A stretch of 64,000 nucleotides of DNA from Agarophyton chilense. Taxonomy: Eukaryota > Rhodophyta > Florideophyceae > Gracilariales > Gracilariaceae. The notes under the pieces were generated by a model. The model was given only the letters and a program-made list of their open reading frames with translations, was not told the origin of the DNA and did no database searches. The DNA is taken from assembly GCA_030374765.1 (NCBI GenBank), contig JARGXX010000080.1, forward strand, positions 2,199,167 to 2,263,166. Direction: 5' to 3'. The stretch's first letter is position 1; each line of letters opens with the position of its first letter. Both the position numbers and the translations under genes were made by a program. Below, piece by piece: positions 19,241 through 59,045 of the stretch.

Positions 19241-19339
19241 GGGAAAGGCTTTATGGGCATAGTGCAGAACGTCAAGATAAAGAATTCTCTGCTTTTCATC
19301 ATTGATCTCATATACATTTCCTCTTTTCAAAGGAATGAA

Positions 19340-19810
19340 GGAGGAAAGATGCTGGAGAAAGAGGACAAAAAGCACTTCACTGATTACTTACCATGTTGCA
19401 TGGTGACCCGCTTTCGACCGAAAGACTTCTGTTATGCTCACAGAGTTCCTCGGAACGAAGTCAGATTAATGCCTCGGTCGGCAGAGGCGATCGAAAGAAA
19501 TATGAAATGCGAATGCAACGAAGTACTTCGTTTCTGGTGAACTAAAAATCTAGACTTGAAGCACTAGAACCCCGGTGATGGTACTTGGTACAAAATTTCA
19601 AAGCAAAGATCAACCAAGAAACCTTCAAAGAGCACTCAGCGTTGTTCAGGGCGCCGTGCAACGCTCATACTTGAGATTTGATCCGGCAAGTCTCCATACT
19701 AGTGTGGCTTCCCTGGAAACCATATTCAATTCCATTGCAAAGGTAGAAGCCCATAAAGGGTTTTTACAGAAATTACACAATAGCGCCTACGTTTTCGACA
19801 ATCTGTAAGA
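19340..19810 (+). pseudogene. Repeat left-arm coding remnant (two ORFs conserved in copy 2)
   Basis: A 95-codon ORF (19253-19540) ends in FRPKDFCYAHRVPRNEVRLM and MKCECNEVLRFW. A 77-codon ORF (19575-19808) reads TKFQSKDQPRNLQRALSVVQ, then FDPASLHTSVASLETIFNSI, then KVEAHKGFLQKL, ending in DNL. The second ORF is kept at the same length in copy 2 (50148-50381, ending DNM), with substitutions but no indels. It looks like the C-terminus of a protein. The family is not recognised. Confidence 0.35.
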
Positions 19811-20177
19811 AAAATTGATTATATAACAAAAACAGAAAGCCTCACGCTCGTCGTATATTCCCTGAAAAGATTTTCGTATTCAAAAGTCGATATATGGAAC
19901 TGAATGAGCTGCACGATTATAGGGCATTCTATTTCATTACACATTGACAGCCTAGAGAACTCCCTCAGCATTTAATTCCAGACATTTGAAGTACACAGCA
20001 TGACTCTCATTAAGACATCCGTGATGTTCCAATAGACGTCCTCAAGATATTCGGGAGATTCTAGTAAGATGTATCTAAAGTAAAATTGTTTAATCTCATT
20101 TTAGGAATATATTATAATGGTGCAGTCAAGCAGTCTATCAAAGACGGCCGTCTCTACTTGTACAAGCTTGTGCCCTA

Positions 20178-20711
20178 TGAACCAGATTGATATCCTCGAG
20201 AAACCCGTTCGATTTTGGTTTCAGACATCTCAAATACATGGCATGACAATCAGTTGGACTTTCGAGATGTCCTGTAGACGTCTTTAAGATATTTAGAAGA
20301 GGTTAATAAAAGTTATTCGGTAGATCTCCAGCCCATATCCTTTTTCTTTCCTAATGATGTCTATTGTGCTTTCGCTTACATTATCAATCAATTAAACCAT
20401 CAATCACGTGGGTCCTTATTCTAATACGACTTTATAAATATAAACTCTAACATTATAATATATTATTAACATTCAGGTTGATTAATTAATGTTTCAAGTA
20501 TCCCTCCTTTTAATTTATTGACCATTACGTCATATAGGCAGATGTCAACTTTGATCCGAACTCCTCAATATTAAGATTCAAATTAATATCCTGCCCCGAT
20601 AGACTCCTACCGTAATAATAATGTTAAGTTATAAATAGTTATAGCAAAAAGCAAAGCGCCGTGAATGTAATACATTAATGAATCTGAAGATCGATGAAAG
20701 ACCTTTGATTG
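20178..20711. repeat. Direct repeat DR1 of repeat copy 1
   Basis: About 530 bp similar to 28240-28787. Shared landmarks include gatatcc-gagaaacccg, a gagatgtcct-tagacgtc segment, gtagatctccag, cgtcatatag/cgtcagatatg, and the end attaatgaatctga...gacctttga. The two are clearly diverged from each other, much more than DR1 is from its counterpart in copy 2 (50750-51284). They could be old LTRs or other terminal direct repeats. A shorter related block precedes at 19981-20070. Confidence 0.7.
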
Positions 20712-20974
20712 TTTCTTGACAACGATGAGGAGTTCCAATCGAATTAGAAGGACTGAGGCCACCGCCATGTGTCGGTTCGGAACATGTGCCGAGCTGTTGG
20801 TGAGCCAACAGCAGGGTTGTCTACCCTGTACTTGGATAAGTTACAGTTTATCGCTGTTTTTGGTTTCGACAACGACTGCGAGGACGTGGTAATACGACGG
20901 TTGGACTGGACAGAATAAAAACAGTCCAATCCATATAGAATTTCCGTGTACACGAAAGTTCCTTGTACTACAAA

Positions 20975-21142
20975 ATGTCGACAATCAGGCCAGCCCTACG
21001 TCTGGGGCCCAAACTTAAAGGTCGCATGATGTTTGTGCAGCAAACATTGCCCCATTTAAGACATGATTTCAGGCGTCTTGCCCAAAAGAAGATTATCCTC
21101 ACGCCTTCAAAATCTTACCAAGCCAACATCAAACTATGTTGA
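20975..21142 (+). CDS. 55-codon ORF conserved in all three repeat copies
   Basis: The ORF runs ATG to TGA and encodes 55 residues including RLGPKLKGRMMFVQQTLPHL and SYQANIK near the C-terminus. Copy 3 (40915-41082) keeps exactly the same length and stop with many substitutions but no indel, reading RLGPEPEGGMMFVQLSLAHL and PYQANIK at the same places. Copy 2 (51547-51714) keeps the frame but has ACG for the ATG. Equal length across a diverged copy indicates past selection on protein. It may be a short protein or a first exon. No family recognised. Confidence 0.5.
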   Translation: MSTIRPALRLGPKLKGRMMFVQQTLPHLRHDFRRLAQKKIILTPSKSYQANIKLC

Positions 21143-21465
21143 CGTCATTAGAAGATGAAGCAGCAGAAATAATCGCTTTAATTCTCCTTGCCTCAACCAC
21201 ATTCATGCCTCCAATTTGCAATGGGCGAGCTTTCGGTCCAGGTTTTGCTCAAGAATATGCATCACAGACGACCAGTTTAATATGTGGATTGCAGCAGATG
21301 ATCTGATGAATTTATCGCAATAAATCTTAACGGCTGTATGCTTCTTGCTTCACGGTTTCTAATTTTCTCGTATCAGAACACTTTTTGCCCTTGAGCTAAG
21401 AACTTTACATAAGTCTTGAGAATGGAGCAGACTTCGTTCCAGCCCTACCTCTATCGTTCGTAAAC

Positions 21466-21911
21466 TGTAACGAAATGACCGCTTGGACAGCGTACAGGTC
21501 TCGACCGGTGGTAGTGTGCTAGAGCGGGTCCTAAAGTTCGAATCGTTGACGGCGGCCCTCCCAGAGTACTTGGTGCAATGGGCTGGCGTTTACTGCGTAG
21601 TCCTACAGGTTGGAGCTACGAAAACGACGGTTTGAAGACCAAAGGGTGGAACTAATATACCAAAGGGGGTTGATTAGTATCCTAACGGTACTTACCGTGC
21701 TTTAAGGGAGAAGCGCCATTCGAGCCAAGTACATAGTACTGGCGAGGCGCTGGGATCTCCCTGGCACTGTAATGCTAAACTATTACACTAATTAAAATAA
21801 TTTAATAATCTACATGAGTCCACCTGAGGTCGACCCGTCCACGTGTCGTTTGTGAGATACCTCAGGGCCCGGCGGCTCACAGAGGTCAACCGTTGTCATC
21901 GCTCCTTCAGA
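21466..21911. mobile_element. 446-bp solo-LTR-like insertion in repeat copy 1
   Basis: The segment begins TGTAACGAAATG, like many Ty3/gypsy LTRs, and is flanked by TAAAC on both sides (21461-21465 and 21912-21916). The diverged copy 3 has the uninterrupted site cgttcgTAAACgcc with a single TAAAC at 41483-41487. Copy 2 has the same 446-bp insertion at 52038-52483, so it entered before copies 1 and 2 separated. The right end (cttcaga) lacks the expected CA, so the LTR assignment is likely but not certain. It interrupts the C-x-x-C ORF described next. Confidence 0.7.
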
Positions 21912-22248
21912 TAAACGCCAAAACTGTACCATGTGCAAGCGGACAAATCTCGCCTTCGTTCCGTTCCAGCCCTTTCACAGTTCGCTTGGCGGCGATGGCT
22001 CCATCATCCCTTTCAGTGACTTTGGCACTCGTATGACACAAGCAACACTATTAAAAGACTCGAGAATGCCATTTTGGATGATTGTGATTGATTTGAGATT
22101 CGAGTGCAAGGACAAAAATCAAAGATGCGAAGTATTGATGGGTTTGCATGGAAGTTTCCGTCTCTGCCCCGAATTGACTGTCCAAACACAAAGCCAGCAA
22201 AAAGAAGACATTGGCAGCCCAAACTTAATCATTTCTTTGCTGGCTTAG
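21912..22248 (+). pseudogene. C-x-x-C ORF of the repeat, split by the LTR-like insertion
   Basis: Downstream of the insertion the frame reads RQNCTMCKRTNLAFVPFQPF, SSLGGDGSIIPFSDFGTRMT and CKDKNQRCEVLMGLHGSFRL, ending at 22248. Copy 2 (52503-52820) has the same 105-codon ORF. Copy 3 (about 41443-41760), which lacks the insertion, reads continuously SSVRKRHRCTTCKQTNLAFV across the empty site. It then conserves SSLGGDGCIIGFSD and EDKNQRCEILMGLDGS, with two stops. The Cys pair after a basic patch suggests a small metal- or nucleic-acid-binding protein, an inference only. Confidence 0.45.
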
Positions 22249-22539
22249 AGACAATTATTACTTTTAAGTCCCGTTTTAGTTTTTAACGTATTTCAACCCA
22301 AAGCGAAAATGAAATGCCTTTTTAGTCAATAAATGCCAGGTAGATGGCGAAGTCCTCGTAGTTGAAAAATCTAATACGAAGAAATCAATCTATGGAAGCA
22401 GGAACTAGAAGAAAAAACGTACAACCTCGAAACCCTTCAAATCTTTTGACTAAATCCTACCCAATGTACAGAAAAGAAAATTCACAAAAGAAAGAAGCTT
22501 GGTAAACAATATATCTCGACAAAGCTCAACAAAACCTAT

Positions 22540-23720
22540 TTTTAGAAGGTAGCTTTGAATCGGCACTTGCCTTTTGATAAGGCATCTCTTAAATGACGCA
22601 TTAGGATTATTCTTTGAACTTCTGCTTCAAGCAGGAATTGACGTGTACATCCCCTACAAAGTAGTGAAACAAGTTCTCTGTGACAAAGGTATAGCGAAGT
22701 CTGTATGAGCTTTCCAGTTTTGAAAACTAAACCCACTTCTAAGAACCATTTCCAGCACTTCTTAATGGGGCATAAAGTTTGACCTGAATGAATCCAGCTA
22801 ATATTGCCAAGCATTCGTCCAGCTCTCGCCAAGTTAATTTTGATTATCATTTCTTTTTTTTCGAGTACATCCGGCACCCCTAAAGAGCCCTGCGTAATGC
22901 TTTCGAACAATGATGACCCCATGTCTGTGTTTCTACGCCAATTAGATAATCGGCTTTTTCTGCGATTGACTCCGTTTTACGAAAAAGGTCTGCGTTTCCA
23001 GTCCACACTGAGTATCATCTTCGATTAATGTCCTTCTAGCCCGCTTTCCGCTCAACGGGTCTTCCAGCTCTACCACCTTTTCGTTAAAGCTCAAGGACAT
23101 GTAGGCAATCCTAACTCTGTCGTTGGTGTTTTCATTTACCTTTGAGGTGAATAATACAAATGGTCTCAAAACTTCGAAGGGCTGCGGTCAGCTGCGCTAT
23201 CCATTTCGCTCCTGTATCAAGATATCGATACAGACACTTAGAACTAGGAAAATCGTTCTCTTCTACCAGGTACCGAACCACTTCCGACTAGTGCGCAATT
23301 TGCCAGAGGGGGGCAAATTGTTGACAAGGAGAGGGACACCATTAGTTTTGCACCTGCTTATAAGTTTGGTCTACGCAGCTGAAGAGCCGAAACCATTCAA
23401 GTAGTTGACACCGACATCCTACCAGAACACCCCAAAAGCTGTATTCCGCCTCCCCTGTAGACGCTGAAGAGCTGGTCGATCGGTACACGATGTTTCGCTC
23501 CCTCCCTGTTAAGAATAAACGGGATCCCACGGGAAGTCCCAGTTGCTGTTGTGGAGATGTTGGTGCTCTCCAAAGACGCCATATTCGCCAGAAGCGTCTT
23601 TCGAATTGGAAGACGTATGGTCCTTGCACCGAACTGCTCCGTTTCAAGTCTGATATGAGCATTTCATCCTCACGAAATGGTTGCCTGCGCCTGGTTGGCT
23701 GTGTATGGCTGCCCTTGGAA
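22540..23720 (-). pseudogene. Decayed minus-strand gene in the repeat, absent from copy 3
   Basis: Minus-strand reading from 23720 gives, with frame changes, SEVVRYLVEENDFPSSKCLY then RYLDTGAKWIAQLTAALRSF (about 23305-23190). Next is a 75-codon ORF (22942-23169) with DRVRIAYMSLSFNEKVVELE then DPLSGKRARRTLIEDDTQCG. A 126-codon ORF (22542-22922) follows with CPIKKCWKWFLEVGLVFKTG. Copy 2 (about 53110-54320) conserves this text with different stops. The whole 22330-23945 stretch is missing from copy 3, so it was either lost there or gained before copies 1 and 2 split. Function unknown. Confidence 0.35.
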
Positions 23721-24159
23721 TCTCTGTTTGCTGCTATTAACGTAGAATCTGGAAGGTTGATCTCGAGTTAACGGTTTCTTCAAACGCCTGGAGGCGGCAG
23801 TACATGCGCAGAACTGCTGCAAAACCATTCTTGCTAGAAAAAAAGAAGTTTCCATTTACGAAGACCATTCAAAGAAGCTGACATTTTGATGTAGGAAGCG
23901 AATGTTCGCCCGTTATTAAAATGAGGAATGGTAAAGTGATTCTGCTTATTTAAATTCGTTGAATAATACGGGAAACGGTGATGCTTATGGAAGGTCCATA
24001 TCTGGGAACAAAACACTTCCTTGTGGTCATTGGAGAAAGAGGATGTAACTCAAATATGATTGGAGGATCTCATAAGCACATATCCGTTTTACCGGGCAGT
24101 TCTTAACAATAGACATAACAATGTAAAAGGGTAGTACGGAAAGCTCTCTGGGCACGCAC

Positions 24160-24830
24160 CTGTGGCAGTTACATTGTTGTTCTTTCTGAGCACTAAGACG
24201 CCTTCACACGCCATAAAATAGGAGATCCTGTACCTTAGGCATGCGACTCGTAAATCAAGGGAACTATGTCCTGAGTATAGATCGAAGCATACTCAAGCCT
24301 TTGTTTGCCTGTAATATTCAAATCGGCCTATAAAAAGATTGCCATGTACATTGACAGGTTTGAAATTAGGACAATTTCATTTCTAGCTGGGTATCGAGAG
24401 AAGTTTTGCAGCGTCTTTTTCTTGGAGTTAATTTGGTTTTCACACGTTATAGGAGACACGCAAAAAGAATGCAGCATTTCTCGTCGCAGACAGGCTTTTC
24501 GTATCTTTCTGAGTAAAGAAAGCCTTTGTATGGTGTAGCTTCTCCAATGAATTTCTATACAGGGGCATCAAAAACAGCGTGCTGATATTCAAGTCCCGAA
24601 CGACTTGCACACCTCTATGTACACATACATGACCTGTTATCCCTGCCGATAGAACTCGAACCGGGCCGGACCAAATCTGAATTTCTGGAAACTATGCTAC
24701 CCGAAACTCTGCTTTCCTCACCGCAGTACCCTACATTTTTAGTTTCCCCACAAGAAAGGTCGCTCGCGAAAGATGCTGTAGAAGATGAAGTAGAAAGTTT
24801 GTTTATGTCAGTTAAACCTTGATTCTTGGT
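24160..24830 (+). pseudogene. Plus-strand gene of the repeat (C-terminal part), stops in copies 1 and 2
   Basis: Aligned by eye with copy 3, the reading is APVAVTLLFFLSTKTPSHAI (copy 3: TPVAATELFFLSSKKPSNAM), then RHAKRMQHFSSQ, YSSPERL, ETMLPETLLSS, and the end KDAVEDEVESLFMSVKP. Copy 1 has two TGA stops in this frame. Copy 3 has it fully open for 137 codons (42425-42838), ending LVEEVDSLFISV. Similar substitutions in the same frame across copies show it was protein coding. The minus strand is also open here, but protein similarity is better on the plus. Family not recognised. Confidence 0.5.
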
Positions 24831-25099
24831 ATCTGACAGGATTCTCGACTCGATACTACTTTTATATCTCACAACTTCCCGAAGACGTTCTGGTTGTGGA
24901 GCATTATAAATGAGCTTTTGAAATGGTAGGATTCAGCAAAGACGTGATTCCAGGGCGAGGCACTTGCCAACTGCTAAGTGCTTCATCGGTTTCTGTCTTG
25001 AGACCATTTTTCTTGGAAGGCAGGGACATCTGCAACTGAAATATGAAACATCTCTCAATGTGCCAATGATATGTGGCTGAGGCTTGAAGAAAATTAGTC

Positions 25100-26274
25100 C
25101 CTGGAGGAAGAGAGCTAAAACCCGATGCCTATATCGTGGAAACAGTTTAGTTGGACACTTATTCGAGGAACACCTATAACTATTAGAGAAGCCACAAACA
25201 TTGGTCATGAGTATGAACAACAATCTGAGTTTGTATCGTGGAAGTTTGGAGACAAAGTTAGGTCAGCGGTGTGCAGACTTGTTGAAAACCCTCAGGGAAC
25301 ACTGTCATGGTTTACACTTCGGTAAACGGTTTGTCTTTCTGCGATCATGACACGTAACCGATGTTCTTCTCAGTTCCCAGAGAAACGAAACGAAAATGAA
25401 TCGAACCGAAATCCTTTACATATAGCGTCCTACCAGAACAATGTGCATTTGAGTACTACTACGGCATAAAAAATGCAACGAGGGTTGCTGGAGAGTGACA
25501 TATATCCCGCTTCCTCCATGAACTCTCCATCACAGCCCACTTCTGGCTGATTTTGGTGACGGTTGTGATAGATGAAAAATATTTCTTTATGGCCCTTTTC
25601 ATCTTCTAGTCAAATCTTCCAACAGCGTAAGCATCAGAAAAGAAATTGAAAGCTTTATGAAAGTCCAGTCAGGAAACCTTATGAGTTACCTGAGCTCGGA
25701 GAAAAAACTATTATGAGGATCGCTATTGTACGTATTCGTCGTTCAGCTTTTCAAGCTGAGTGACGTCTTTCTCTTTAACGAATCAAAGCACTGCGCGTAA
25801 ACAAAATTGCTGGGTTGTGACGGAGTTCATCAAAAAAGCATTCAAAAGAGACACGAAAGGTGCTACGGCTGAAAAGACGAAGAAAATTCGTGACAAAAGT
25901 TCGTCTGGAAGGGTTACCGAGCATATCTCAGAAGACCCGCATGCTTGAAATAGTGCACCTACGAAGGCAAATAGACGAACTCAACCGATGCTATCCGTCA
26001 ATTTTTTTACCTGAGTCAGACGTAGGAATTTTGGAAAGGTTTCCTCATCGAAACAATTCTGCATAGCGTGGACACTCGAAGCATATCTAGAAGACTCGGA
26101 TGACCAGAACGGTAACACAGGCTCGAGCAATTCTCACTTGGAAGCCGCAGACGAAAACCGTGGTTGTACCTGTCATCAGCCACGTAGCCTGAAATCAAGG
26201 CACTACGAGAACAGAAACCGCAACGTCAATCTTAAGAGCATCTGTTACACAGACATCAAGCGTGTCCATTCTCG
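25100..26274 (+). other. Repeat copy 1 interior, short ORFs shared with copy 2
   Basis: Several 60-80 codon plus ORFs are shared with copy 2, for example 25125-25325 (copy 2: 55690-55932). They include EFVSWKFGDKVRSAVCRLVE and, further on, TEFIKKAFKRDTKGATAEKT. The 26138-26371 ORF is rich in Arg, Asn and His (SRHYENRNRNVN). No domain recognised; likely fragments of one or more decayed genes. Confidence 0.25.
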
Positions 26275-26639
26275 CTACTACCGGAATGCCAAACGCAGCA
26301 GCCCTGGCAAATACAGCGCTTCGAAAGCAAGTAAAGAGGGGCCGACTGTAATACATGGAAAACAATACTGAGCCATGTTCTCGTAGCTTCAAAAGACAGA
26401 GAAAATGTCGAAGAAGCCCCAAACACAGCAAAAAACGTCTCGCAAACGATGATAATGAGATTAGCGAAGGTGGGATTGAGCAGTGCCCGCCTGCCCCTAA
26501 GAAAACGAGGAAAGGTGGGAGATAGCTTTCATCGGTCTGCTGATTTGTTTGGAAAGACACAAAAGAAACCAGCCCTGCCTTCTTGGCACCTTGAATCAAT
26601 CCGTACGGCTTGAGAAAGCTTCCGCCTAAGTAGCTCTCA
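26275..26639. other. 365-bp segment present in copy 1, absent from copy 2
   Basis: Copy 2 passes directly from cattctcg to catcaaaaat (56880/56881). Copy 1 has 365 extra bases, with no target duplication or inverted repeat visible. The left (ttctcgc) and right (gctctcac) borders share only a few bases. A simple deletion in copy 2 is the likeliest explanation. The segment includes a small basic ORF (26355-26525). Confidence 0.7.
26355..26525 (+). CDS. 56-codon basic ORF with nuclear-localisation-like clusters
   Basis: Begins MENNTEPCSRSFKRQRKCRR, then HSKKRLANDDNEISEGG, and ends PKKTRKGGR. KR-rich clusters around an acidic centre look like a nuclear protein tail. It overlaps the end of an Arg/Lys-rich ORF (26138-26371) in another frame. 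Only copy 1 retains it. It may be a C-terminal exon; too short for confident calling. Confidence 0.3.
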   Translation: MENNTEPCSRSFKRQRKCRRSPKHSKKRLANDDNEISEGGIEQCPPAPKKTRKGGR

Positions 26640-26779
26640 CATCAAAAATTCTTCTGCTGCCCCTTACCTTCGGGGCTGACTTATGTGAATTAATTTGATT
26701 CGTATGCCTCTTAAGCGGTTGGAATCCTTTTGCATACTTTTTTTTCAGGTAGTTCATCTTCTCCGTTTGTGTTTGTTTT

Positions 26780-27700
26780 TGTGTGGGTAGGTTACTAGAT
26801 AATAATTTAACTTACTGTGCGCAATGCCAGAGGTTTATATTAAACCTGCGTATGGCGCGACATACCACTTTGTTTTCGGTCGTTCTATTTCTTTGGATCT
26901 TGGTATGGTTTCGAACCTTTTTTATGACTCACTCTTTATATAATTCACATTGCAAAATCTCTCATGCGCGCCTAATACTCCCCAAAACATATAATTCTTC
27001 CGTTTCCTTCGATATCTCGTTGCAGAGGGCCACCGTTTGGAACTGATACACCGCTATTAACTTTTCACAGCCCAACTTGATCTCCGAAGAAAAGAATGCA
27101 AACATCAAAACGCCATCATGTAAGCTTACGTACTTCAAACAGCATGATTCACCGTAATGTCCATTAGGCCTATTCCCCTCCAAAGTTTTTGACTTTTTTG
27201 CAGATCCGACTCTGCGTGATCAGAACTCATGTCGGTGTCTTTTAGGTTTAAGATTATTGACCCAGTCAAATGTTCTGGAAAGCAGAAAGTAACATCCCGA
27301 ATTCTCTCAAGTCCACCTGTTCGTAATTCCAGTCTGCGACAGAGTCCTAACATTCTAATGCTTCTCCTCTTTCACAGTCTGCCACCAAACTGCCATTCCT
27401 CCCCCTCCAGATCTTAGGGCGCCGCAACCATATCGATGTCGTTCATCCTTCTACGAAAGCAGCAATGGACAGGTCAATATATTCTTTTCTCAAGTGCGGT
27501 CAACTCTCTACACGACTAATATTCAAACTAAACTGCATATCACTCATTGCCAGGTGTACCCACACTTCCTAAACCCCCGTGAGGACTTGATATCTCTCTT
27601 GCACGTTCAAAGTGGTTCTGAATTTATGAAAGTATGTGCCAGTTCTCATGCTCTGAATTCTAACAGATTTAACCTCACCGAAGCTCTTTGAACAATCGGA
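26780..27700 (+). pseudogene. Repeat right-half coding remnant with intron-like segment
   Basis: Before the putative intron a plus frame reads PEVYIKPAYGATYHFVFGRS then ISLDLGMVS (about 26825-26910; same in copy 2). After it, ORF 27229-27417 reads FRFKIIDPVKCSGKQKVTSR. Alternative frames give GRRNHIDVVHPSTKAAMDRS and IYSFLKCGQLSTRLIFKLN to about 27530. All are conserved in copy 2 (57024-57281, 57470-57658) with few indels. Family not recognised. Confidence 0.3.
27120..27203 (+). other. Putative 84-bp spliceosomal intron in the repeat
   Basis: Donor gtaagc at 27120, acceptor tttttttgcag ending at 27203. Copy 2 has the same 84-bp segment (57361-57444) with the stronger donor gtaagt and acceptor cgcag. 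Length and both splice dinucleotides are preserved. Splicing itself is inferred. Confidence 0.4.
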
Positions 27701-28239
27701 GAAATTTTCATGATGTGGCTACTCTGAAGCGAATTTTCTAACCATAAAGCACATTCATCGTTACATTTTACATGCGAAGTCGATGTTGGCTTGCTACAAG
27801 GCGTGGTAGTGTTCTGATCGACATATTGACAGACCAACCTTAATATGAATAGTTTACAACTCTGACACTGTTAATTCGCACATGTTCTGGGCTATAAACT
27901 GACTTATTGGGTCTTTTGTTGGACAAATTGAGAGCTAAATTTGGCTTTAATCTCGTCGCGAGTCGTACAAAAATGTTTAGTACCTGGCTGAACTGATTCT
28001 GCACATATTTGGAACAGAAAAAATAAACGAAGTGGTCTAGTTTTCGGGAACTTTTAATCAGAACATGATCAAATTTAACACTTTTTTGAGACACATTTTT
28101 ATGGCATCTGGTTCGCTATTATAAGTTCATACATGGGGCATCTCTTAATGATTGCATTTGGGACAAATAAATGACCCACATGCAGGGACTTTTCTGGGCC
28201 ATATTTTGTACACAAATAGTTGACCATGGTTGGGCCTCG

Positions 28240-28787
28240 TGAAGCACATTGATATCCATGAGAAACCCGTAAGATTTTAGTTCCGGACATCTAAACTACA
28301 TAGCATGGAGCATGACTGTCGGTTCGACTACTGAGATGTCCTATAGACGTCCTTAAAATGTTCGGTAGATGTTAATAAAAGGTATTTGGTAGATCTCCAG
28401 CTCATATTCGTCCGATTTGTCAGTGATGTGTAATATGATTTTGTTTTGATTATGAATCAAGTAGGTCTTTATATTAATACCACTTTCTAATTATAAACTG
28501 TACCATTATAATATAATATTAGATTAAGAAAAGGCATTTTTATATGCAGGTTGATTAAGTTTGGTTTCAAGTATACCTCGTTCCAATTTATTGACGAGTT
28601 CGTCAGATATGCTGAGGTCAACTGTAATTCCAACTCCTCAATATAAATATTCAAGATAATATCCTGCTCCGATAGCCTACTTCTGTAGTAATAATGTGAA
28701 ATCATAAATAGTTGTAGCAAAAAACAAAGCGCCGTGAATAGGGTCTTTCATTAATGAATCTGATGATTCAGAGAAGACCTTTGAATG
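28240..28787. repeat. Direct repeat DR2 at the right end of copy 1
   Basis: Related to DR1 (20178-20711); counterpart in copy 2 at 58481-59045. It ends at ...gacctttgaatg, exactly where homology between copies 1 and 2 ends. This supports a true element terminus here. Confidence 0.7.
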
Positions 28788-28795
28788 TGTTTGTG

Positions 28796-28923
28796 AAGGA
28801 AGCACTTGCCTCTTACACTCTCTTGGCTCTGGCGTTGCCGTCGGCTTATCCACCATGTTCTCTACTGCAATGTGATCTGACCGAAAAGTGGCAGGACAGA
28901 GATTGAGCTAATTTGATCTGACA
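28796..28923 (-). repeat. Partial copia LTR next to repeat copy 1
   Basis: In minus orientation it starts TGTCAGATCAAATTAGCTC after a purine-rich stretch (aagcggcaagaaacagggga). It shares the core tcactttttcggtcagatcaca-like segment with 40428-40643. It ends where copy 1 begins. Confidence 0.6.
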
Positions 28924-28929
28924 GTCCCC

Positions 28930-29300
28930 TGTTTCTTGCCGCTTTTCGGTGGAGATGTAGGGAGTTTGATGTTCAGTTGGCTTTGGAGGTGTGTGTAGTG
29001 GCCGGGTTGGAGGGGCTTGGTGAATATGTCTGCTTTCGTTGCTACGGTAGGTGGTTTCCAGATTGTGACGGTTTTCTTATGAATAAGATATTGGATGTGA
29101 TGATGGCAAATGTTGATTCCGTTTGCGAGTTGGAGCCTGATTCTTTGCTGTCATGATAGCAGATTTGGTGTCCACAAAATGTTGCATGCCAAAGTGTAGT
29201 TACAGAATTAGCAAGGCAAAGGGATACTTGACCCACGTGGTATGTCAGTCTGCGGCCAAGGCGGCAAGCTATTCAGATTCCGTGGTGAATAGTGTCACGA
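28930..29300 (-). pseudogene. copia A RNase H C-terminal remnant
   Basis: On the minus strand: HHIQYLIHKKTVTIWKPPTV, then ATKADIFTKPLQPGHYTHL, the typical C-terminal block of copia RNase H (the ADxxTKPL motif). Upstream, around 29290-29220, is the region where the alternating Tyr/Glu motif (AEAEY-type) would lie, readable only in pieces. Confidence 0.8.
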
Positions 29301-29749
29301 TACGTTGCTTCGCCAATGCCCAAAATATGGGACTGCCATTTAAAAGGTGGAGAATTCCGCTTACTGACTTTCAGTCTTTTGCGTTCGCAAATACTACATC
29401 ACTGTACACTATAAGACGGTTCTTGGTGAAGGGATTCGATCGAAAATAGGTTATGCCGTGAATACGGGTTCCTCGAATGTAATGTGAAAGCGCTTTGAGA
29501 GCCTGCGACTAGTGCTTCTGTGGTTGTTTGGTGAACTGGGAAAGGGTATGGACCTGGTATTTAAGATCGTATCGGGCGCAGTCGAAAAAGGTACAGAACT
29601 CCTCCTAGGACCATTCTGTCGAGACATGTCTGAGGTGCTGTGAGGGGAGAGGTGGCAGGTTTTGATTGCAAAGATTTGATATCTTGATAGGGAATCTGTT
29701 TGTTATTGAAGTCCATGAGATTCACGTGGGCTAGAATTTCGACCACCAG

Positions 29750-30330
29750 TGGCGGTAGGGACAAGTGGTGCGAGTTATCGGTGACAGTAACCAAATCAGT
29801 TAAGGAACATTGTTGGGCAATCGAGGCGTTTGATGTTGTATTTTTCTTTCATATGGTTACACAGTTTGATAATGAGAGAGCGATAAGAGGCTAGAACGAA
29901 AAAGTCATCAATGGTGGTTGTGATCAAAATGAATCCGTCTGTATTTGATTAGTAGTGTAAGCATGGATCTGCAGATGATTTTGTATAACCGTTTTGTTTC
30001 ATGGTTTTGAAGAGGCCTTAGTTATACATTCAGACTGCTGGAACAATACCCGAGACTGTTTCCGCCGAGTTAACCATACTTGGTTTGGTGTTTTAGAGAC
30101 TCGTCACATCCTGGCATCGGATTTACGTATATCTGGCGGTCGTCATTGCTAAGGAATCTGCGTTTTCATGAGATCTCCTCTGACATTGCAGCGTGCCTTG
30201 GGTTCTGTGTCTGTTACATTTTGAGTCTCGCTTGTAACGATATTACATCGTAAGAGGAGTTTTGGGGATAGTTGTATATTGTTTGGTAGCTAATACACAC
30301 TATTTAGTTTATCGACATCATCCAGTTCTT
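29750..30330 (-). pseudogene. copia A reverse transcriptase remnant
   Basis: The minus strand reads DGFILITTTIDDFFVLASYR, the YVDD-type catalytic box with Tyr-Val changed to Thr-Ile, then SLIIKLCNHMKEKYNIKRLD. Upstream (about 30240-30170) is a weak KARxVxRGD-like block (EPKARCNVRGDLMKTQIP). Several stops and frame changes; inactive. Confidence 0.75.
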
Positions 30331-30639
30331 GGTTGTGGGCTTCTTGCCATAGTTCTGCGTCTCATCATTAATAGGCCCTGTGGAGATTTTCAAGGGGTGG
30401 AAGGTGTGCTGTACTGGTTTGAGTAATGAGCGTGAGGTTCACACGATTGAGTTTGAAGGCTGTTGTGGAATGTGTGACAGGATTGGTTTCTTTTTGGTAG
30501 GAACAAAAGTCAGTGTTTTGTATGGAATCAAAATGGGTTATCTTCAGGTTGGGAACGCTTTAATGCGTCAGAGACGTGCCGTATATGTATCTTGCAGAAT
30601 ATGCTTGGGGTCGTAGTTTTATTTCGGGAGAGTGGTTCG

Positions 30640-32740: not shown

Positions 32741-32799
32741 TTGCAGCGGCTATTGCTTTTACTGCAAGAAGCTCAGGTTCATAATTTAAATGGATTCAA

Positions 32800-48900: not shown

Positions 48901-49290
48901 CTGTGATGGTTCTGAAGTTCAACCGTTCAACATGTATTATAGGGTCATACATGAGCTTTGGGTGGTCAACGTCTCGTACCAAACGCCAATGGAGCAAGTA
49001 ACACTCTCCAGAACCTACCAAAGTTCAAGGTTCTATTAGATGTACGGAATCTTGTTCGACCGCATCACAGGGCGGTTGTACACCCGCTTAAATGGAGCAC
49101 AGCGGAGGGGTACCATTCGAGACACAAAAAAAACTATCGAGGACCTTTCTTGTATCAAGAGAAACATCGTTTCCTGGAGTTAAACGGCCGTCGAACCTTC
49201 TTCGATTCTGTGGGTGAAAGTATTGTTGATGGAACTGGAAGACAAGGGCGTTTACGAGGAGTCGCAGGAGAAACGCATTCGTGATGAGCA
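45935..49290 (+). pseudogene. CACTA/TNP2-type transposase gene relic
   Basis: Plus-strand fragments form one long protein. The N-terminal ORF (45935-46564) has Ser/Asp-rich and basic parts (SSSSRSDSSDSRSESLKRIL, KHKRQRKSS). Frame 46485-46931 reads DEMGFLFQDAEDPLYDW. The TNP2 core follows at about 47140-47530: VFLTFSSDGVEVSKGRKMKK, SLWTLMFTILNYSPEYQSQA, SDVLLGALVPGSH, then ADWPAPSKMIGRKGHNAEFP, stop, RKCHKG, matching the family D-PA-K--G--GH-A---C--C signature. A DUF4218-like region follows in 48123-48638 (THAILHFPEILHECGLLRKR, then FFVERVAGSLNDILKSRQRP), and a C-terminal region in 48677-49284 (FKVLLDVRNLVRPHHRAVVH). Several stops and at least three frame changes. Terminal CACTA repeats not seen. 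Confidence 0.75.
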
Positions 49291-49299
49291 GTGGAGAGT

Positions 49300-49800
49300 C
49301 ATTGATAAAGGTGCGCCGATGTGCGAGGAAAACTAACATTGAGTGTGACAGGTTGTGACGAAGAAATACGAGATAATGGATACGAAATGGACAGCACATT
49401 GTGAAAGAGCAGTGTTTGGAGGCCAACTGCACTTGTTATCTACATTCCATGTTCAAGTTGCAATGGCATCAAATGCCAAATAATATTTGCCAAACAGAAT
49501 TGGCTGCGAGTTCAAATATAATCAACTTTGATTGGATGATCTTGATGCCGAGACGGGCATTGTAAGGGTATCTCAAGAACATATTATTTTCACGGACGTA
49601 GGAAACTGCTGCGCATCCAATGCACACATTGTCGGTCATCATCTTCACATCAATAGAGCGTCCATTGTAGATACCGTGTACATCCACAGTACATAATTTG
49701 AGGTAATCTTTTGCGTATTTTCTGTAGATCCAGTGCACATCATTTTGCCTTCAAAATTGTTTTAAGTTGACTTCAAAATCGATGTAATCTTAAATATCTT
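49300..49800 (-). other. Unrecognised minus ORF left of repeat copy 2
   Basis: An 89-codon ORF (49469-49738) reads MHWIYRKYAKDYLKLCTVDV, then YNGRSIDVKMMTDNVCIGCA. It looks protein-like but matches nothing I know, and it is not shared with the left flank of copy 1. Confidence 0.25.
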
Positions 49801-50147
49801 TGGAACATTTATGGCATATCACAGTGCCTCTCCGGAACAGGACGTCAAGATAAAGAATTCACTGCTTTTCATCAGTGATCTCATATACATTTCCTCTTTT
49901 CAAAGGAATGAAGGAGGAAAGATGTAGGAGAAAGAGTACAAAAAGCACTTCTACGATTACTTACCATGTTGCATTGTGGCCCACTTTCGACCGAAAGACT
50001 TCTGTAATGTTTACAGAGTTCCTCGGAACGAAGCCAACTTAATGCCCGGGTCGGCAGAGGCGATCGAAAAAAATATGAAATGCGAATGCAACGAAATACT
50101 TCGTTTCTGGTGAACTAGAAATCTAGACTTGAAGCCCTACAACCCTG

Positions 50148-50381
50148 TTGATGGTGCCTGGTACAAAACTTCAAAGCAAAGATCAACCAAGAAACCTTCA
50201 AAGAGCACTCCGCGTTGTTTGGGGCGACGTGCAACGCCCATACTTGAGCTTTGATCCGGCAAGTCTCCCTACCAGCGTGGCTTCCCTGGAAACAATATTC
50301 AATGCCATTACAAAGGTAGAAGCCCATAAAGGGTTTACACAGAAACTACAGGATAGCGTTTACGTTTTCGACAATATGTAA
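50148..50381 (+). pseudogene. Copy 2 left-arm 77-codon ORF
   Basis: Counterpart of 19575-19808, same length: TKLQSKDQPRNLQRALRVVW, then FDPASLPTSVASLETIFNAI, ending DNM. Unknown function. Confidence 0.35.
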
Positions 50382-50749
50382 GAAAAAATGATTATTAAAC
50401 AACAACAGAAAGCCTCACGCTCGTCGTATATTCCCTGAAAAGGTTTTCGTATTCAAAAGTCGATATACGGAACTGAATGAGCTGCACGATTATAGGCCAT
50501 TCTATTCCATTACACAGTGACAGCCTAGAGAACTCCCTCAGCATTTCATTCCAGACATTTGATGTACACAGCATGACTCTCATTAAGACATCCGTGATGT
50601 TCTAATAGACGTCCTCAAGATATTCGGGAGATACTAGTAAGATGTATCTACAGTAAAATTGTTTAATCACATCTTAGGAATATATTATTATGGTGCAGTC
50701 AAGCAGTCTATTAAAGACGGCCGTCTCTACTTGTACAAGCCTGTGCCCT

Positions 50750-51284
50750 ATGAACCAGATTGATATCCTCGAGAAACCCGTTCGATTTTGGTTTCAGACA
50801 TCTCAAATACATGGCATGACAATCAGTTGGACTTTCGAGATGTCCTGTAGACGTCTTTAAGATATTTAGAAGAGGTTAATAAAAGTTATTCGGTAGATCT
50901 CCAGCCCATATCCCTTTTCTTTCCTAATGATGTCTATTGTGATTTCGCTTACATTATCAATCAATTAAACCATCAATCACGTGGGTCCTTATTCTAATAC
51001 GACTTTATAATTATAAACTCTAACAATATAATATATTCTTAACATTCAGGTTGATTAATTAATGTTTCAAGTATCCCTCCTTTTAATTTATTGACCATTA
51101 CGTCATATAGGCAGATGTCAACTTTGATCCGAACTCCTCAATATTAAGATTCAAATTAATATCCTGCCCCGATAGACTCCTACCGTAATAATAATGTTAA
51201 GTTATAAATAGTTATAGCAAAAAGCAAAGCGCCGTGAATGTAATACATTAATGAATCTGAAGATCGATGAAAGACCTTTGATTG
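50750..51284. repeat. Direct repeat DR1 of copy 2
   Basis: Counterpart of 20178-20711. Diverged from DR2 of the same copy (58481-59045) to about the same visible degree as in copy 1. Confidence 0.7.
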
Positions 51285-51546
51285 TTTCTTGACAACGATG
51301 AGGAGTTCCAATCGAATTAGAAGGACTGAGGCCACCGCCATGTGTCGGTTCAGAACATGTGCCGAGCTGTTGGTGAGCCAACAGCAGGGTTCTCTACCCT
51401 GTACTTGGATAAGTTACAGTTTATCGCTGTTTTTGGTTTCGACAACGACTGCGAGGACGTGGTAATACGACGGTTGGACTGGACAGAATAAAAACAGTCC
51501 AATCCATATAGAATTTCCGTGTACACAAAGTTCCTTGTACTACAAA

Positions 51547-51714
51547 ACGTCGACAATCAAGCCAGCCCTACGTCTGGGGCCCAAACTTAAAGGTCGCATG
51601 ATGTTTGTGCAGCAAACATTGCCCCATTTAAGACATGATTTCAGGCGTCTTGCCCAAAAGAATATTATCCTCACGCCTTCAAAATCTTACCAAGCCAACA
51701 TCAAACTATGTTGA
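51547..51714 (+). pseudogene. 55-codon repeat ORF, copy 2, start codon lost
   Basis: Same frame and stop as in copies 1 and 3, but the first codon is ACG. The rest differs from copy 1 by only a few bases. Confidence 0.5.
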
Positions 51715-52037
51715 CGTCATTAGAAGATGAAGCAGCAGAAATAATCGCTTTAATTCTCCTTGCCTCAACCACATTCATGCCTCCAATTTGCAATGGGCGA
51801 GCTTTCGGTCCAGGTTTTGCTCAAGAATATGCATCACAGACGACCAGTTTAATATGTGGATTGCAGCAGATGATCTGATGAATATATCGCAATAAATCTT
51901 AACGGCTGTATGCTTCTTGCTTCACGGTTTCTAATTTTCTCGTATCAGAACACTTTTTGCCCTTGAGCTAAGAACTTTACATAAGTCTTGAGAATGGAGC
52001 AGACTTCGTTCCAGCCCCACCTGTATCGTTCGTAAAC

Positions 52038-52483
52038 TGTAACGAAATGACCGCTGGGACAGCGTACAGGTCTCGACGGGTGGTAGTGTGCTAGAGCAGA
52101 TCCTAAGGTTCGAATCGTTGACGGCAGCCCTCCCAGAGTACTCGGTGCAATGGGCTGGCGTTTACTGCGTAGTCCTACAGGTTGGAGCTACGAAAACGAC
52201 GGTTTGAAGACCAAAGGGCGGAACTAATATACCAAAGGGGGTTGATTAGTACCCTAACGGTACTTACCGTGCTTTAAGAGAGAAGCGCCACTCGAGCCAA
52301 GTACATAGTACTGGCGAGGCGCTGGGATCTCCCTGGCACTGTAATGCTAAACTATTACACTAATTAAAATAAATTAATAATCTACATGAGTGCACCTGAG
52401 GTCGACCCGTCCACGTGTCGTCTGTGAGATACCTCAGGGCCCGGCGGCTCACAGAGCTCAACCGTTGTCATCGCTCCTTCAGA
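52038..52483. mobile_element. 446-bp solo-LTR-like insertion in copy 2
   Basis: Same length and borders as in copy 1, flanked by TAAAC at 52033-52037 and 52484-52488. Shared ancestry of the insertion dates the split of copies 1 and 2 after it. Confidence 0.7.
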
Positions 52484-52820
52484 TAAACGCCAAAGCTGTA
52501 CCATGTGCAAGCGGACAAATCTCGCCTTCGTTCCGTTCCAGCCCTTTCACAGTTCGCTTGGCGGCGATGGCTCCATCATCCCTTTCAGCGACTTTGGCAC
52601 TCGTATGACACAAGCAAGACTATTGAAAGACTCGAGAATGCCATTTTGGATGATTGTGATTGATTTGAGATTCGAGTGCAAGGACAAAAATCAAAGATGC
52701 GAAGTATTGATGGGTTTGCATGGAAGTTTCCGTCTCTGCCCCGAATTGACTGTCCAAACACAAAGCCAGCAAAAAGAAGACATTGGCAGCCCAAACGTAA
52801 TCATTTCTTTGCTGGCTTAG
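52484..52820 (+). pseudogene. C-x-x-C ORF, copy 2
   Basis: 105 codons from 52503, nearly identical to 21931-22248; its 5' part is cut off by the LTR-like insertion. Confidence 0.4.
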
Positions 52821-53109
52821 AGACAATTATTAGTTTTAAGTCTCGTTTTAGTTTCAAACGTATTTCAACCCAAAGCGAAAAAGAAATGCCTTTTCAGTCA
52901 ATAAATGCCAGGTACTTCGGGAACTCCTCGTAGTTGGAAAATCTAATACGAAGAAACCAAGCTTTTAAAGCAGGAAGTAGAAGAGAAAACGTACAACCTT
53001 GAAACCCTTCAAATCTTTTGACTAAATCCGACCCAATGTGCAGAAAAGAAAAGAAAATTCACAAAAGAAAGAAGCTTGATAAACAATATATCTCGAAAAA
53101 GCTCAACAA

Positions 53110-54330
53110 AACCTATTTTTAGATGGTAACTATGAATCAGAACTTGCCTTTTGATAAGGCATCTCTTATATGACGCATTAGGATTATTCTTTGAACTTCT
53201 GCTTCAAGCAGAAATAGACGTGTACATCCCCTACAAAGTAGTGAAACAAGTACTCTGTGACAAAGGTATAGCGAAGTGATTATGAGCTTTCCAGTGTTGA
53301 AAACTAAACCCACTTCTAAGAACTATTTCCAGCACTTCTTAATGGGGCATAACGTTTGACCTGAATGAATCCAGCTAATTGTGTCGAACATTTGTCCAGC
53401 TCTCGCCAAGTTAGGATTGATTGTCGTGTCTTCTTTTTCGAGCACATCCGGCACCTCTAAAGAGCCCTGCGTGATGCTTTCGAACAATGATGACCCCATG
53501 TCTGTGTTTCTACGCCGATTAGATAATCGGCTTTTTCTGCGATTGACTCCGTTTTACGAAAAAGGTCTGCGTTTCCAGTCCACACCGAGTATCATCTTCG
53601 ATTAATGTCCTTCTAGCCCGCTTTCCGGTCAACGGGTCTTCCAGCTCTACCACCTTTTCGTTAAAGCTCAAGGACACGTACGCCATCCGAACTCTGTCGT
53701 TTGTGTTTTCATTTACCTTTGAGGTGGATAATACAAATGGTCTTGCAACTTCGAAGCGCTGCGGTCAGCTGCGCTAACCATTTCGCTCCTGTATCAAGAT
53801 ATCGATACAAATACTTGGAACTAGGAAAATCGTTATCTTCTACCAGGTACCGAACCACTTCCGACTAGTGCGCAATTTCCCAGAGGTGGACAAATTGTTG
53901 GCAAGGAGAGAAAACCCATTTGTTTCGCACCTGTATATAAATTGGGTCTACGCAGCTGAAGAGCCGAAGCCACTCAAGTAGTTGACACCGACATTCCTAC
54001 CAGACCACCCCAAAAGCTGTATTCCGCCTCCCTTGTAGACGCTGAAGAGCTGGTCGAGCGGTACACTATGTTTCGCTCCCTCCCTGTTAAGAATAAACGG
54101 GATCCCACGGGAAGTCCCGGTTGCTGTTGTGGAGATTTCGGTGCTCTCCAAAGAATCCATACTCGCCAGAAGCGTCCTTGGAATTGGAAGAAGTATGGTC
54201 CTTGCACCGAACTGCTCCGTTTCAAGTCTGGGATGAGCACTTCATCCTCACGAAATGGTTGCCTGCGCCTGGTTGGCTGTGTATGGCTGCCCTTGGATTC
54301 TCTGTTTCCTGCTATTATCATAGAATCTGG
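53110..54330 (-). pseudogene. Decayed minus-strand repeat gene, copy 2
   Basis: Counterpart of 22540-23720. Keeps SEVVRYLVEDNDFPSSKYLY then RYLDTGAKWLAQLTAALRS, and SLSFNEKVVELEDPLTGKRA, with stops at different positions from copy 1. Confidence 0.35.
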
Positions 54331-54749
54331 AAGATTCTTCTCGATTTAACGGTTTCTTCAAACGCCTGGAGGAGGCAGTATATGCGCAGAACTGCTGCAA
54401 AACCATTCTTGCTAGAAAAAAAAGAAGTTCCCTTTTACGAAGACCATTCGAAGAAGCTGACATTTCGATATAGGAAGCGGATTTTCGCCCGTTATTAAAA
54501 TGAAGAATGGTAAAATGCGGAGTGTAACAGTTCTAGGACTCTTGATTCTGCTTATTTAAATTCGTTAAATAACAAGGGAAACGGTGATGCTTATGAAAGG
54601 TCCATATCTGGGAACAAAACACTTCCTTGTGGTCATTGGAGAAAGAAGATGTAACTCAAATATGATTGGAGGATCTCATATGCACATATCCGTTTTACCG
54701 GGCAGTTCTCAACAATAGACAAAACAATCTGAACGGGTAGAACAGAAAG

Positions 54750-55420
54750 CTCTTTGGGCACGCAACTGTGGCGGTTACATTGTTGTTCTTTCTGAGCACT
54801 AAGATGCCTTCACACGCCGTACAACAGGAGATCCTGTACCTTACGCATGCGACTGGTAAATCGAGAGAACTATGTCCTGAGTATAGATCGAAGCATACCC
54901 AAGCCTTTGTTTGCCTGTAGTTTTCAAATCGGCCTATAAAAAGATCGCCATGTACATTGACAGGTTTGAAATTAGCACAATCTCATTTCTAGCTGGATAT
55001 CGAGAGAAGTTTTGCAGCGTCTTTTTCTTGAAGTTAATTTGGTTTTCACAAGTTATAGGAGACACGCAAAAAGAATGCAGCATTTCTGGTCGCAGAAAGC
55101 CTTTCCGTATCTTTCTGAGGAAAGAAAGCCTTTGTATGGTGTAGCTTCTCCAATGTATTTCTTTACAGGGGCATCAAAACCAGCTTGCTGATATTCAAGT
55201 CCCGAACGACTTGCACGCCTCTATGTACACATACATGACCTGTTTTCCCTGCCGATAGAACTCGAACTGGGCCGGACCAAATCTGAATTTCCGGAAACTA
55301 TGCTACCCGAAACTCTGCTTTCCTCACTCCAGTATCCTACATGTTTAGTTTCCCCACATGAAAGGTCGCTCGCGAAAGATGCTGTAGAAGATGAAGTAGA
55401 TAGTTTGTTTAGGTCCATGT
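54750..55420 (+). pseudogene. Plus-strand C-terminal repeat gene, copy 2
   Basis: Counterpart of 24160-24830: TVAVTLLFFLSTKMPSHAVQ, and the end KDAVEDEVDSLF. Carries stops. Confidence 0.4.
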
Positions 55421-57360
55421 AACCTTGATTCTTGGTATCTGACAGGATTCTCGAATCGATACTACTTTTATATCTCACAACTTCCCGAAGACGTTCTGGT
55501 TGTGGAGCATCATAAATGAGCTTTTGAGATGGTAGGATTCAGCAAAGACGTGATTCCAGGGCGAGGCACTTGCCAACTGCTAAATGCTTCATCGGTTTCT
55601 GTCTTGAGACCATTTTTCTTTGAAGGCAGGGACATTTGCAACTGATATATGAAACATCTCTCAATGTGTCAATGATATGTGGCTGAGGCTTGAGGAAAAT
55701 TAGTCTCTGGAGGAAAAGAGCTAAAACGCCGATGCCTATATCGTGGAAACATTTTAGTTGGGCACTTATTCGAGGAACACCTATAAATCTTAGAGAGGCC
55801 ACAAACAGTGGTCATGAGGATGAACAACAATCTGAGTTTGTATTGTGGAAGTTTGGAGACAAAATTAGGTCAGCGTTGTGCAGACTTGTTGAAAACCCTC
55901 AGAGAACACTGTCAAGGTTTACACTTCGGTAAACGGTTTGTCTTTCTGCGATGATGACACGTAACCGATGTTCTTCTCAGTTCCCAGAAAAACAAAATGA
56001 AAATAACTCGAACCGAAATCCTTTACATATAGCGTCCTACCAGAACAATGTGCATTTGAGTACTACTACGGCATAAAAAATGTGACGAGGGTTGCTGAAG
56101 AGAGACATATATGCGGCTTCCTCCATGAACTCTCCATCACAGCTTACTTCTGGCTATATTTGGTGACGGTTGTGAAAGATGAAAATCCTTCTTTATGGCC
56201 CTTATCATCTTCTAATCAAATCTTTCAACAGCGTAAGCATCAGAAAAGAAATTGAAAACTTTATTAAAGTCCATTAAGGAAACCTTATGAGTTATCCGAG
56301 CTCGGAGAAGGAACTATTATGAGGATCGCTGTTGTACGTATTCGTCGTTCAGCTTCTCAAGCTGAGTGACGTCTTTCTCTTTAACGAATCAAAGCACTGC
56401 GCATGAACAAAATGGCTGGGTTATGACGGAGTTCATCAAAAAAACATTCAAAGAGACACGAAAGATGCTACGGCTGAAAAGACGAAGAAAATTCGTGACA
56501 AATGTTCGTCTGGAAGGGTTAGCGAGCGTATCTTAGAAGACCCGCATGCTTGAAAAAGTGCACCTACGAAGGCAAATGGACGAACTCAACCGATGCTATC
56601 CGTCAATTCTTTTTACCTGAGTCAGACGTAGGAATTTTGGACAGGTTTCCTCATCGAAACAATTCTGCATAGCGTGGACACTCGAAGCATATCTAGAAGA
56701 CTCGGATGACCAAAACGGTAACACAGGCTCGAGCAATTCTCACTTGGAAGCCGCAGACGAAAACCATGGTTGTACCTGTCATCAGCCACGTAGCCTGAAA
56801 TCAAGGCACTACGAGAACAGAAACCGCAACGTCAACCGTAAGAGCATCTGTTACACAGACATCAAACGCGTCCATTCTCGCATCAAAAATTTTTCTGCTG
56901 CCCCTTCCCTTCGGGGCGGACTTATGTGAATTAATTTGATTCATATGCCTCTTAAGCGGTTAGAATCCTTTTGCATACTTTTTTTTCAGGTAGTTCATCT
57001 TCTCTGTTTGTGTTTGTTTTTGTGTGGGTTGGTTACTAGATAATAATTTAACTTACTGTGCGCAATGCCAGAGGTTTATTTTAAACCTGCGTATGGCGCG
57101 ACATACCACTTTGTTTTCGGTCGTTCTATTTCTTTGGATCTTGGTATGGTTTCGAAGTTTTCCTATGACTCACTCTTTATATAATTCACATTGCAAAATC
57201 TCTCATGCGCGCCTAGTACTCCCCAAAACATATACTTCTTCCGTTTCCTTCGATATCTCGTTGCAGAGGGCCACCGTTTGAAACTGATACACCGCTATGA
57301 ACTTTTCACAGCCCAACTTGATCTCCGAAGAAAAGAATGCAAAATTCAAAACTCCACCAT

Positions 57361-57444
57361 GTAAGTTTACCTACTTAAAACAGCATGATTCACCGTAATG
57401 TCCATTAGGCCCATTCCTCTCCAATGTTTTTGACTTTTTCGCAG
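57361..57444 (+). other. Putative 84-bp intron, copy 2
   Basis: gtaagt donor and cgcag acceptor, same length as the copy 1 segment at 27120-27203. Confidence 0.4.
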
Positions 57445-58480
57445 ATCCGACTCTGCGTGGTCAGAACTCATGTCGGTGTCTTTTAGGTTTAAGATTATTG
57501 ATCCAGTCAAATGTTCTGGAAAGCAGAAAGTAACATTCCGAATTCTCTCAAGTCCACCAGTTCGTAATTCCAGTCTGCGACAGAGTCCTAACGTTCTAAT
57601 GCTTCTCCTCTTTCACAGTCTGCCACCACACGACCATTTCTCCCCCTCAAGATCTTAGGGCGCCGCAACCATATCGATGTCGTTCATCCTTCTACGAAAG
57701 CAGCAATGGACAGATCAATATATTCTTTTCTCAAGTGTGGCCAACTCTCTACACGACTAATGTTTAAACTAAACTGCATATCACTCACTGCCAAGTGTAC
57801 CCACACTTCCTAAACCCCCTTGAAGACTTGATATCTCTCTTGCACGTTCAAAGTGGTTCTGAATTTATGAAAGTATGTGCCAGTTCTTATGCTCTGAATT
57901 CTAACGGATTTAAGCCCACCGAAGCTCTTTTAACAATCGCAGAAATTCTCATTATTTGACTGCTCTGATGCGGATCTTCTAACCATAAAGCAAATTCATC
58001 GTTACATTTTACATGCGACGTCGATATTGGCTTGCCACAAGGCGCGGTAGTGTTCTGATCGACATATGGACAGACCTACCTATATATGAATAGTTTAGAA
58101 CTCTTACGGTGTTAATTCGAACTTGTTCTGGGCTATAAGCTGACTCATTGGGTCTTTTGCTGGAGAAATTGAGAGCTAAATGTGGCTTTAATTTCGTCGA
58201 GAGTCCAACAAAATTGTTTGGTACCTGGTAGACCTGATTCTGAACATATTTCCAACAGAAAAAATAAACGAGGTGGCCTAGTTTTCGGCAACTGTGAATC
58301 AGAACGTGATCAAATTTAACACTTTTTTGAGACACATTTTCATTGCATCTGGTTCACTTTTATAAGTTCATATATGGAGCATCTCTTAATGTTCGCATTT
58401 GGGACAAGTAGATGACCCACATGCAGGACTTTTTCTGGGCCATATTTTGTACACAAATAGTTGATCAAGTTTGGGCTTCG

Positions 58481-59045
58481 TGAAGCACATTGATATCCTT
58501 GAGAACCCCGTAAGATTTTAGTTCCGGACATCTAAACTATATAGCATGTAGCATGACTGTCGGTCCGACTTCTGAGATGTCCTATAGACGTCCTTAAGAT
58601 GTTTGGTAGATGTAAATAAAAGGTATTTGGTAGATCTCCAGTCCACATATTCGTCCGATTTGTCAGTGTTGTGTAATATGTTTTGCTTTGATCATGAATC
58701 AACTCAATCATCAATCAACTAGATCTTTATTTTAATACTACTTTATAATGATAAACTGTACCATTATAATACAATATTAGATAAAGAAAACGAATTATTA
58801 TACACGGGTTGATTAAGTGTTGTTTCAAGTATATCTCGTTCCGATTTTTTGACGAATTCGTCAGATATGCTGATGTCAACTGTAATTTGGACTCCTCAAT
58901 ATAAATATTCAAGATAATATCCTGGGCCGATAGACTCCTACCGTGATAATAATGTTAAATGATAAATAGTTGTAGCAAAAAACAAAGCGCCATGAATAGG
59001 GTGTTTCATTAATGAATATGATGATTCAGAGAAGACCTTTGAATG
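58481..59045. repeat. Direct repeat DR2 of copy 2
   Basis: Counterpart of 28240-28787, at the right end of the unit and ending at the copia B junction. Confidence 0.7.

Follow-up and report, generated by a model that had tools for sequence, protein, structure and literature searches.

The window analysed here is the final 64 kb (64,000 nucleotides) of a 2.26-Mb contig (JARGXX010000080.1, hereafter C80) in the 79.8-Mb, 135-contig assembly of the red alga Agarophyton chilense. It holds two near-identical units of about 9 kb, which an initial annotation took to be an undescribed mobile element, a non-autonomous one or a duplicated host segment. The evidence set out below supports the last of these readings and lends no support to the other two. 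In this regard, the 9-kb units are probably parts of an old local tandem repeat, in which a segment R is followed by a segment A and a segment B stands before the next R, the whole lying in a duplicated array at the end of C80.

Anatomy of the units

Comparison of the window with itself by BLAST recovers the two long repeats in direct orientation, with 19265-26275 matching 49838-56881 at 94.4% identity and 26635-28794 matching 56876-59052 at 91.5%. It likewise bears out the third, diverged copy (copy 3), at approximately 40645-42853 (40645-41275, 41483-41897 and further pieces), for which identity is 74-79% in the self-BLAST and 67-80% in a further comparison. Fifteen off-diagonal pairs are found in the real window, as against none in five mononucleotide shuffles at equal E-value. 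The division of a unit into segments is drawn from the comparison among copies, and is as follows.

19265-28794, plus strand: unit 1, in the order U-R1-A-B-R2 (self-BLAST against unit 2)
19265-20154, plus strand: U, left of R; its right half also lies upstream of R in three copies on contig C111
20155-20721, plus strand: R1, 0.54 kb, core 20178-20714 (27 genome matches; alignment)
20715-25803, plus strand: A segment, with its right end at about 25803
21466-21909, plus strand: dispersed 0.45-kb repeat in A, probably a solo long terminal repeat (LTR); TG...CA, flanks GTAAAC and GATAAAC
25803-28239, plus strand: B segment, a truncated pseudogene of the P-B gene described below (from about residue 110) with 3' sequence
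28240-28792, plus strand: R2, 74.9% identical to R1
49838-59052, plus strand: unit 2, in the same order as unit 1, with R1' at 50751-51287 and R2' at 58481-59051 (self-BLAST)

A break at the position of A's right end, about 25803, is likewise seen in C14rc (contig C14 read in reverse), in a copy further upstream on C80, and in copies on C135 and C111. The 0.45-kb repeat is absent from copy 3 and from C14rc.

The direct repeats of about 0.54 kb that had been reported in each unit are indeed present, but their copies are only 75-76% alike within a unit: R1 (20178-20714) and R2 (28240-28792) are 74.9% identical, and other pairs of R, both within and between units, are 75-76% identical. When this is set against the 94.4% and 91.5% identity of the units themselves, it follows that R was duplicated long before the units were. 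Differences between the units are unevenly distributed: the 500-bp windows that begin at 20235 and 20735 contain five each, as against 55 in those that begin at 27735 and 28235, which suggests gene conversion or mosaic copying.

R has a sharp end at TTTGAATG in the alignment. A TATAAATA-like motif falls within its 40 best-conserved columns (20626-20665; column permutation P 0.018, with seven representatives of 11 copies), a hint that R was formerly a promoter or an LTR. R1 also has short complementary ends, TGTACAAG at 20159 and CTTGACA ending at 20721. In a tree of 11 copies, which took in five of the eight matches on C111, R falls into three groups (R1, R2 and C111), leaving the choice between an LTR pair and a tandem repeat undecided.

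The R/A junction and the insert Z

The common right end reported for the two units is real, in that identity runs to 28794 and 59052 and only 6 of the next 30 bases agree. The same base recurs in different contexts because it is the junction between R and A. This is seen in an alignment of ten R copies, in which the R1 of either unit, and three copies on C111, run directly into A; at two further C111 copies, which share flanks, about 24 bases of A are followed by other sequence. A repeat of 131-134 bp, X, follows R2 of unit 1 and the copy on C106, and unrelated sequence follows R2 of unit 2. Moreover, X lies immediately upstream of A both in copy 3 and in C14rc, such that the order R2-X1...X2-A is found in the window and in C14rc alike. 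Since X stands both after R2 and before the A of copy 3, these two segments were once neighbours, with a further element, Z, inserted between them.

28792-40646, minus strand: Z, an LTR-flanked relic bounded by X1 and X2
40645-42853, plus strand: copy 3, an A segment that has internal deletions and lies immediately to the right of X2 (self-BLAST, alignments)

The flanks of Z read ...TTTGAATGTGTT on the left and, on the right, GTTTCTCAACAAC in copy 3 or GTTTCTTAACAAC in C14rc, and the R1-type junctions carry an uninterrupted TTTGAATGTTTCTTGACAAC where the flanks of Z are split. These sequences are at most suggestive of a target duplication of Z, and an imperfect one. A counterpart of Z lies at C14rc 25258-29665 (loci L018-L019 reversed). 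On the minus strand of Z a GGTTATGGGCCC-like sequence stands beside the LTR, which may recall the half-tRNA (transfer RNA) primer site of copia elements. The sequence beyond R2 of unit 2 fits this account less well: both copia remains and another insert are present there, and on C14 no A turned up before the next B end.

The larger duplicated array

Almost all of the sequence between a point some 0.87 kb upstream of the window and the window's end recurs on contigs C14, C81 and C82 at 95-99% identity. For a stretch of about 1.4 kb (35776-37178) no match was found on these three contigs, and the C14 copy closest to the window lacks 29458-31294, which is found at 89% elsewhere on C14; differences between C14 and the window include kilobase indels. 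On C82, positions 1-17494 match 43531-61030 at 99.7%, that is, a head-to-tail tandem period of 43.5 kb within one contig. The blocks thus have the features of segmental duplications, being longer than 1 kb, present at 90% identity or more in several places, and head-to-tail on C82. The two ends of C14 (127685 bases) overlap over 8.2 kb at 99.9%, so that this contig could represent a single period of 119.4 kb, a circle or an overlap left by the assembly. Contig C106 (362 kb) carries a portion of this array close to its start, and the array probably joins C80 to C106 within a chromosome.

Copies elsewhere in the genome

The genome-wide nucleotide searches, which skip very common words, give 27 matches to R (26 of 26 candidates scored): four on C80, seven on C14, five on C82, two on C81, one on C106 and eight on C111. 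In other words, all 27 matches are confined to the contigs of the array and C111, and R is not interspersed. The start of A has 36 matches on R-bearing contigs and six of approximately 190-220 bp on C97, and the later part of A has one short match on C86. The matches on C97 (C97:816296-1085779) are weak, four of them lying about 3.9 kb apart as if in a tandem array. The first genome search returned 1663 candidates, as a high-copy family might; this reading was rejected, as the numerous short matches fall on the 0.45-kb repeat in A, a stretch that was left out of later genome searches.

Copies outside the array share no pair of end points, which is the very observation that the initial annotation had named as telling against an element. 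On C135 and upstream on C80, B has a left neighbour, P, in place of A, and the C135 copy is without detectable R; in C14rc and upstream on C80 the end of A runs into another segment, D, in place of B; and on C111 there is either R with some 250-340 bp of A, or pieces of A alone. There is no independent insertion site at which a target duplication of the unit might be read, its left flank being U and its right flank Z, A or other sequence, and the 25 longest of 47 inverted pairs include no terminal inverted repeats at the ends of a unit. Nothing indicates that the units are self-mobile.

Coding content of the units

Several open reading frames had been described as conserved between copies, but this is not coding conservation, as, of the 12 gaps between the units, ten have a length not divisible by three. 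Stop-free windows compared between units have too few differing sites to show selection. Across eight pairwise comparisons most gaps shift the frame, and changes do not clearly favour the third position; where more than ten changes could be counted, the largest third-position shares are 14/28 in a window of Z and 29/71 in a window of B. A host gene or gene cluster, considered for both A and the units, was rejected on these same grounds. The 145-residue frame of copy 3 has 20 matches, all of them within the unit family.

Stop-free pieces of at least 45 residues number 80 in 20715-28240, and all 40 of at least 65 residues were scanned against Pfam. None of the 40 exceeds the cut-off, in keeping with the earlier report that reverse transcriptase, integrase and DDE motifs are absent from the units; their surroundings do, however, contain nested transposon genes. 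The best score is to IN_DBD_C, in A, below the cut-off (E 0.0047, 20 residues). Similar VR-V/I-LS residues recur in copy 3 and C14rc, and the match may be regarded as a weak lead towards a retroelement origin of A.

The P-B gene family

Upstream on C80, B extends leftwards into P, and P-B forms a single open frame of 291 residues. B in the units begins at about residue 110 of this frame, and is therefore a truncated copy. The frame has 68 genome matches (77 of 77 candidates scored), 11 of which lie in stop-free frames of 401-515 residues; one P-B locus is at L033:2431-3303. A 921-bp probe taken from one relative on C68 (C68:1731640-1732560, L043) finds 16 matches; 14 of these, spread over 12 contigs, have a DNA identity of 95-100%. 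In each of these 14 young copies the match to a 201-bp probe from further downstream is offset by 1385-1410 bp, and the sequence continues beyond it in the three copies that were read. An end of the young copies at base 200 of L044 was considered and rejected, since three copies read on with only a single-base difference.

Among 5.8 billion proteins one homologue was found, P0001, a 454-residue protein from a EukProt transcriptome, which is 48% identical over half of the query. The P-B protein has no match in Pfam or the PDB. Its conserved region of about 135 residues is predicted, with modest confidence, to be helical, and has no significant fold match. On the sequence evidence, then, P-B is a gene family spread through the genome and B is its truncated pseudogene. 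It is doubtful whether the units are what remains, in tandem copies, of an undescribed mobile element centred on the P-B gene, a relative of which is transcribed in another eukaryote. The P-B family is the part of this work worth following, as it has numerous near-identical copies, contains no known domain and has hardly any relatives in databases.

Origin of the units and competing explanations

An ancient tandem duplication would have produced the arrangement R-A-B-R-A, into which an LTR retrotransposon (Z), a Harbinger-like element, a copia-like element and a solo LTR would then have inserted. Later unequal exchange and segmental duplication would have copied whole blocks, and such late block copying would explain why the units match at 94% though their R repeats match at only 75%. 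If so, a 9-kb 'element' with terminal repeats can arise by duplication followed by insertion at a junction, and such pseudo-elements matter for the repeat libraries of little-studied eukaryotes.

Several points weigh against this history. Both units end at the same base, as an element also would. R could be a former LTR, given its TATA-like block and the complementary ends of R1, and its tree is compatible with an LTR pair. Some of the sequence on C14, C81 and C82 may stem from duplicate assembly or from haplotypes and not from neighbouring copies. Finally, R and A occur on C111 too.

On a rival reading the units would be a dead non-autonomous LTR retrotransposon of the LARD type, with R1 and R2 as LTRs, A and B as a non-coding interior, and the array formed by recombination between LTRs and by segmental duplication. 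LARD-type elements are non-autonomous LTR retrotransposons with direct repeats around a non-coding interior. The units resemble them in having direct repeats around a non-coding interior, here of 7.5 kb, and the sharp right end of R with the conserved TATAAATA-like block nearby, the complementary short ends of R1, and the sub-threshold IN_DBD_C match in A with its residues kept in copy 3 and C14rc all argue in the same direction. Unlike such elements, however, the units are not interspersed, their R2 does not appear to be terminal (A follows beyond Z), and no target duplication was found at them. This origin is accordingly unlikely.

It is less likely still that R, A and B all belong to a single large undescribed mobile element around the P-B gene, now arrayed in tandem. 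The number and high identity of the young P-B copies, the constant offset of the downstream probe and the continuation of sequence beyond it would suit such an element, as would the position of B, which adjoins R in unit 1, unit 2 and C14rc and adjoins the end of A in both units and upstream on C80. Yet no DNA match to R or A lies near any of the 14 young copies, and B occurs on C135 without detectable R. Nor is any of the 14 within 10 kb of a listed match to DDE_Tnp_4 or RVT_1 (150 of 525 and 150 of 3134 candidates scored, respectively).

That C14, C81, C82 and the end of C80 are the same few copies assembled repeatedly is very improbable, for although the contigs are short and the ends of C14 overlap, units 1 and 2 lie at 94% within one contig, C82 alone spans more than one 43.5-kb period, and C14 differs from the window by kilobase indels.

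Nested elements and other features of the window

A Pfam scan of the window finds fragments of RVT_1, copia-type gag and integrase, DDE_Tnp_4 and a 3-ketoacyl-CoA-synthase-like sequence (FAE1_CUT1_RppA). The domains of the LTR inserts were judged by eye, except for the copia remains of the window, which rest on Pfam. No tRNA was found in the window under bacterial settings, and no Rfam match at gathering thresholds across its whole length.

1918-2793, plus strand: RVT_1 fragment (Pfam; gypsy-like by eye)
32943-40423, minus strand: Harbinger-like element inside Z, with TAA on both sides
35177-35611: 3-ketoacyl-CoA-synthase-like fragment in the Harbinger-like insert (Pfam)
39413-40174: DDE_Tnp_4 fragment in the Harbinger-like insert (Pfam, 25.9 bits, cut-off 24.8)
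59624-61119, minus strand: copia-type gag and integrase remains, right of unit 2 (Pfam)

The Harbinger-like insert is dispersed, with relatives at 82-88% on several contigs, and the DDE fragment is at the matching relative position in those on C86, C93 and C98. PIF/Harbinger elements have terminal inverted repeats and make a 3-bp TWA target duplication. TAA stands on either side of the insert, but TAT is found at the related empty site, and an inverted match of 12/14 is internal to the insert and not at its ends.

At 46410-48638 there are two long frames, of 173 and 232 residues. The longer has a sub-threshold match to DUF4218 (E 0.046) and the shorter has no Pfam match; together they are possibly a CACTA-like relic.

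Comparison with known systems

In being a dispersed element that carries a host-gene-like fragment, the Harbinger-like insert resembles the Pack-TYPE transposons, which are non-autonomous plant elements according to the abstract of PMC8903248. It differs from that description in that a transposase fragment stands beside the gene fragment. Z, the element inside the R of C14rc and the solo LTR share with copia and other LTR retrotransposons their TG...CA direct repeats and short flanking duplications; the difference is that they insert into the unit and are not the unit. Segmental duplications and macrosatellite-like arrays offer a close parallel to the array, with large blocks at 90-99.9% identity in direct orientation, a tandem period, and outside copies without common ends. 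What distinguishes the present array is that the repeat within its blocks is itself an older, heavily decayed R-A tandem with many nested insertions.

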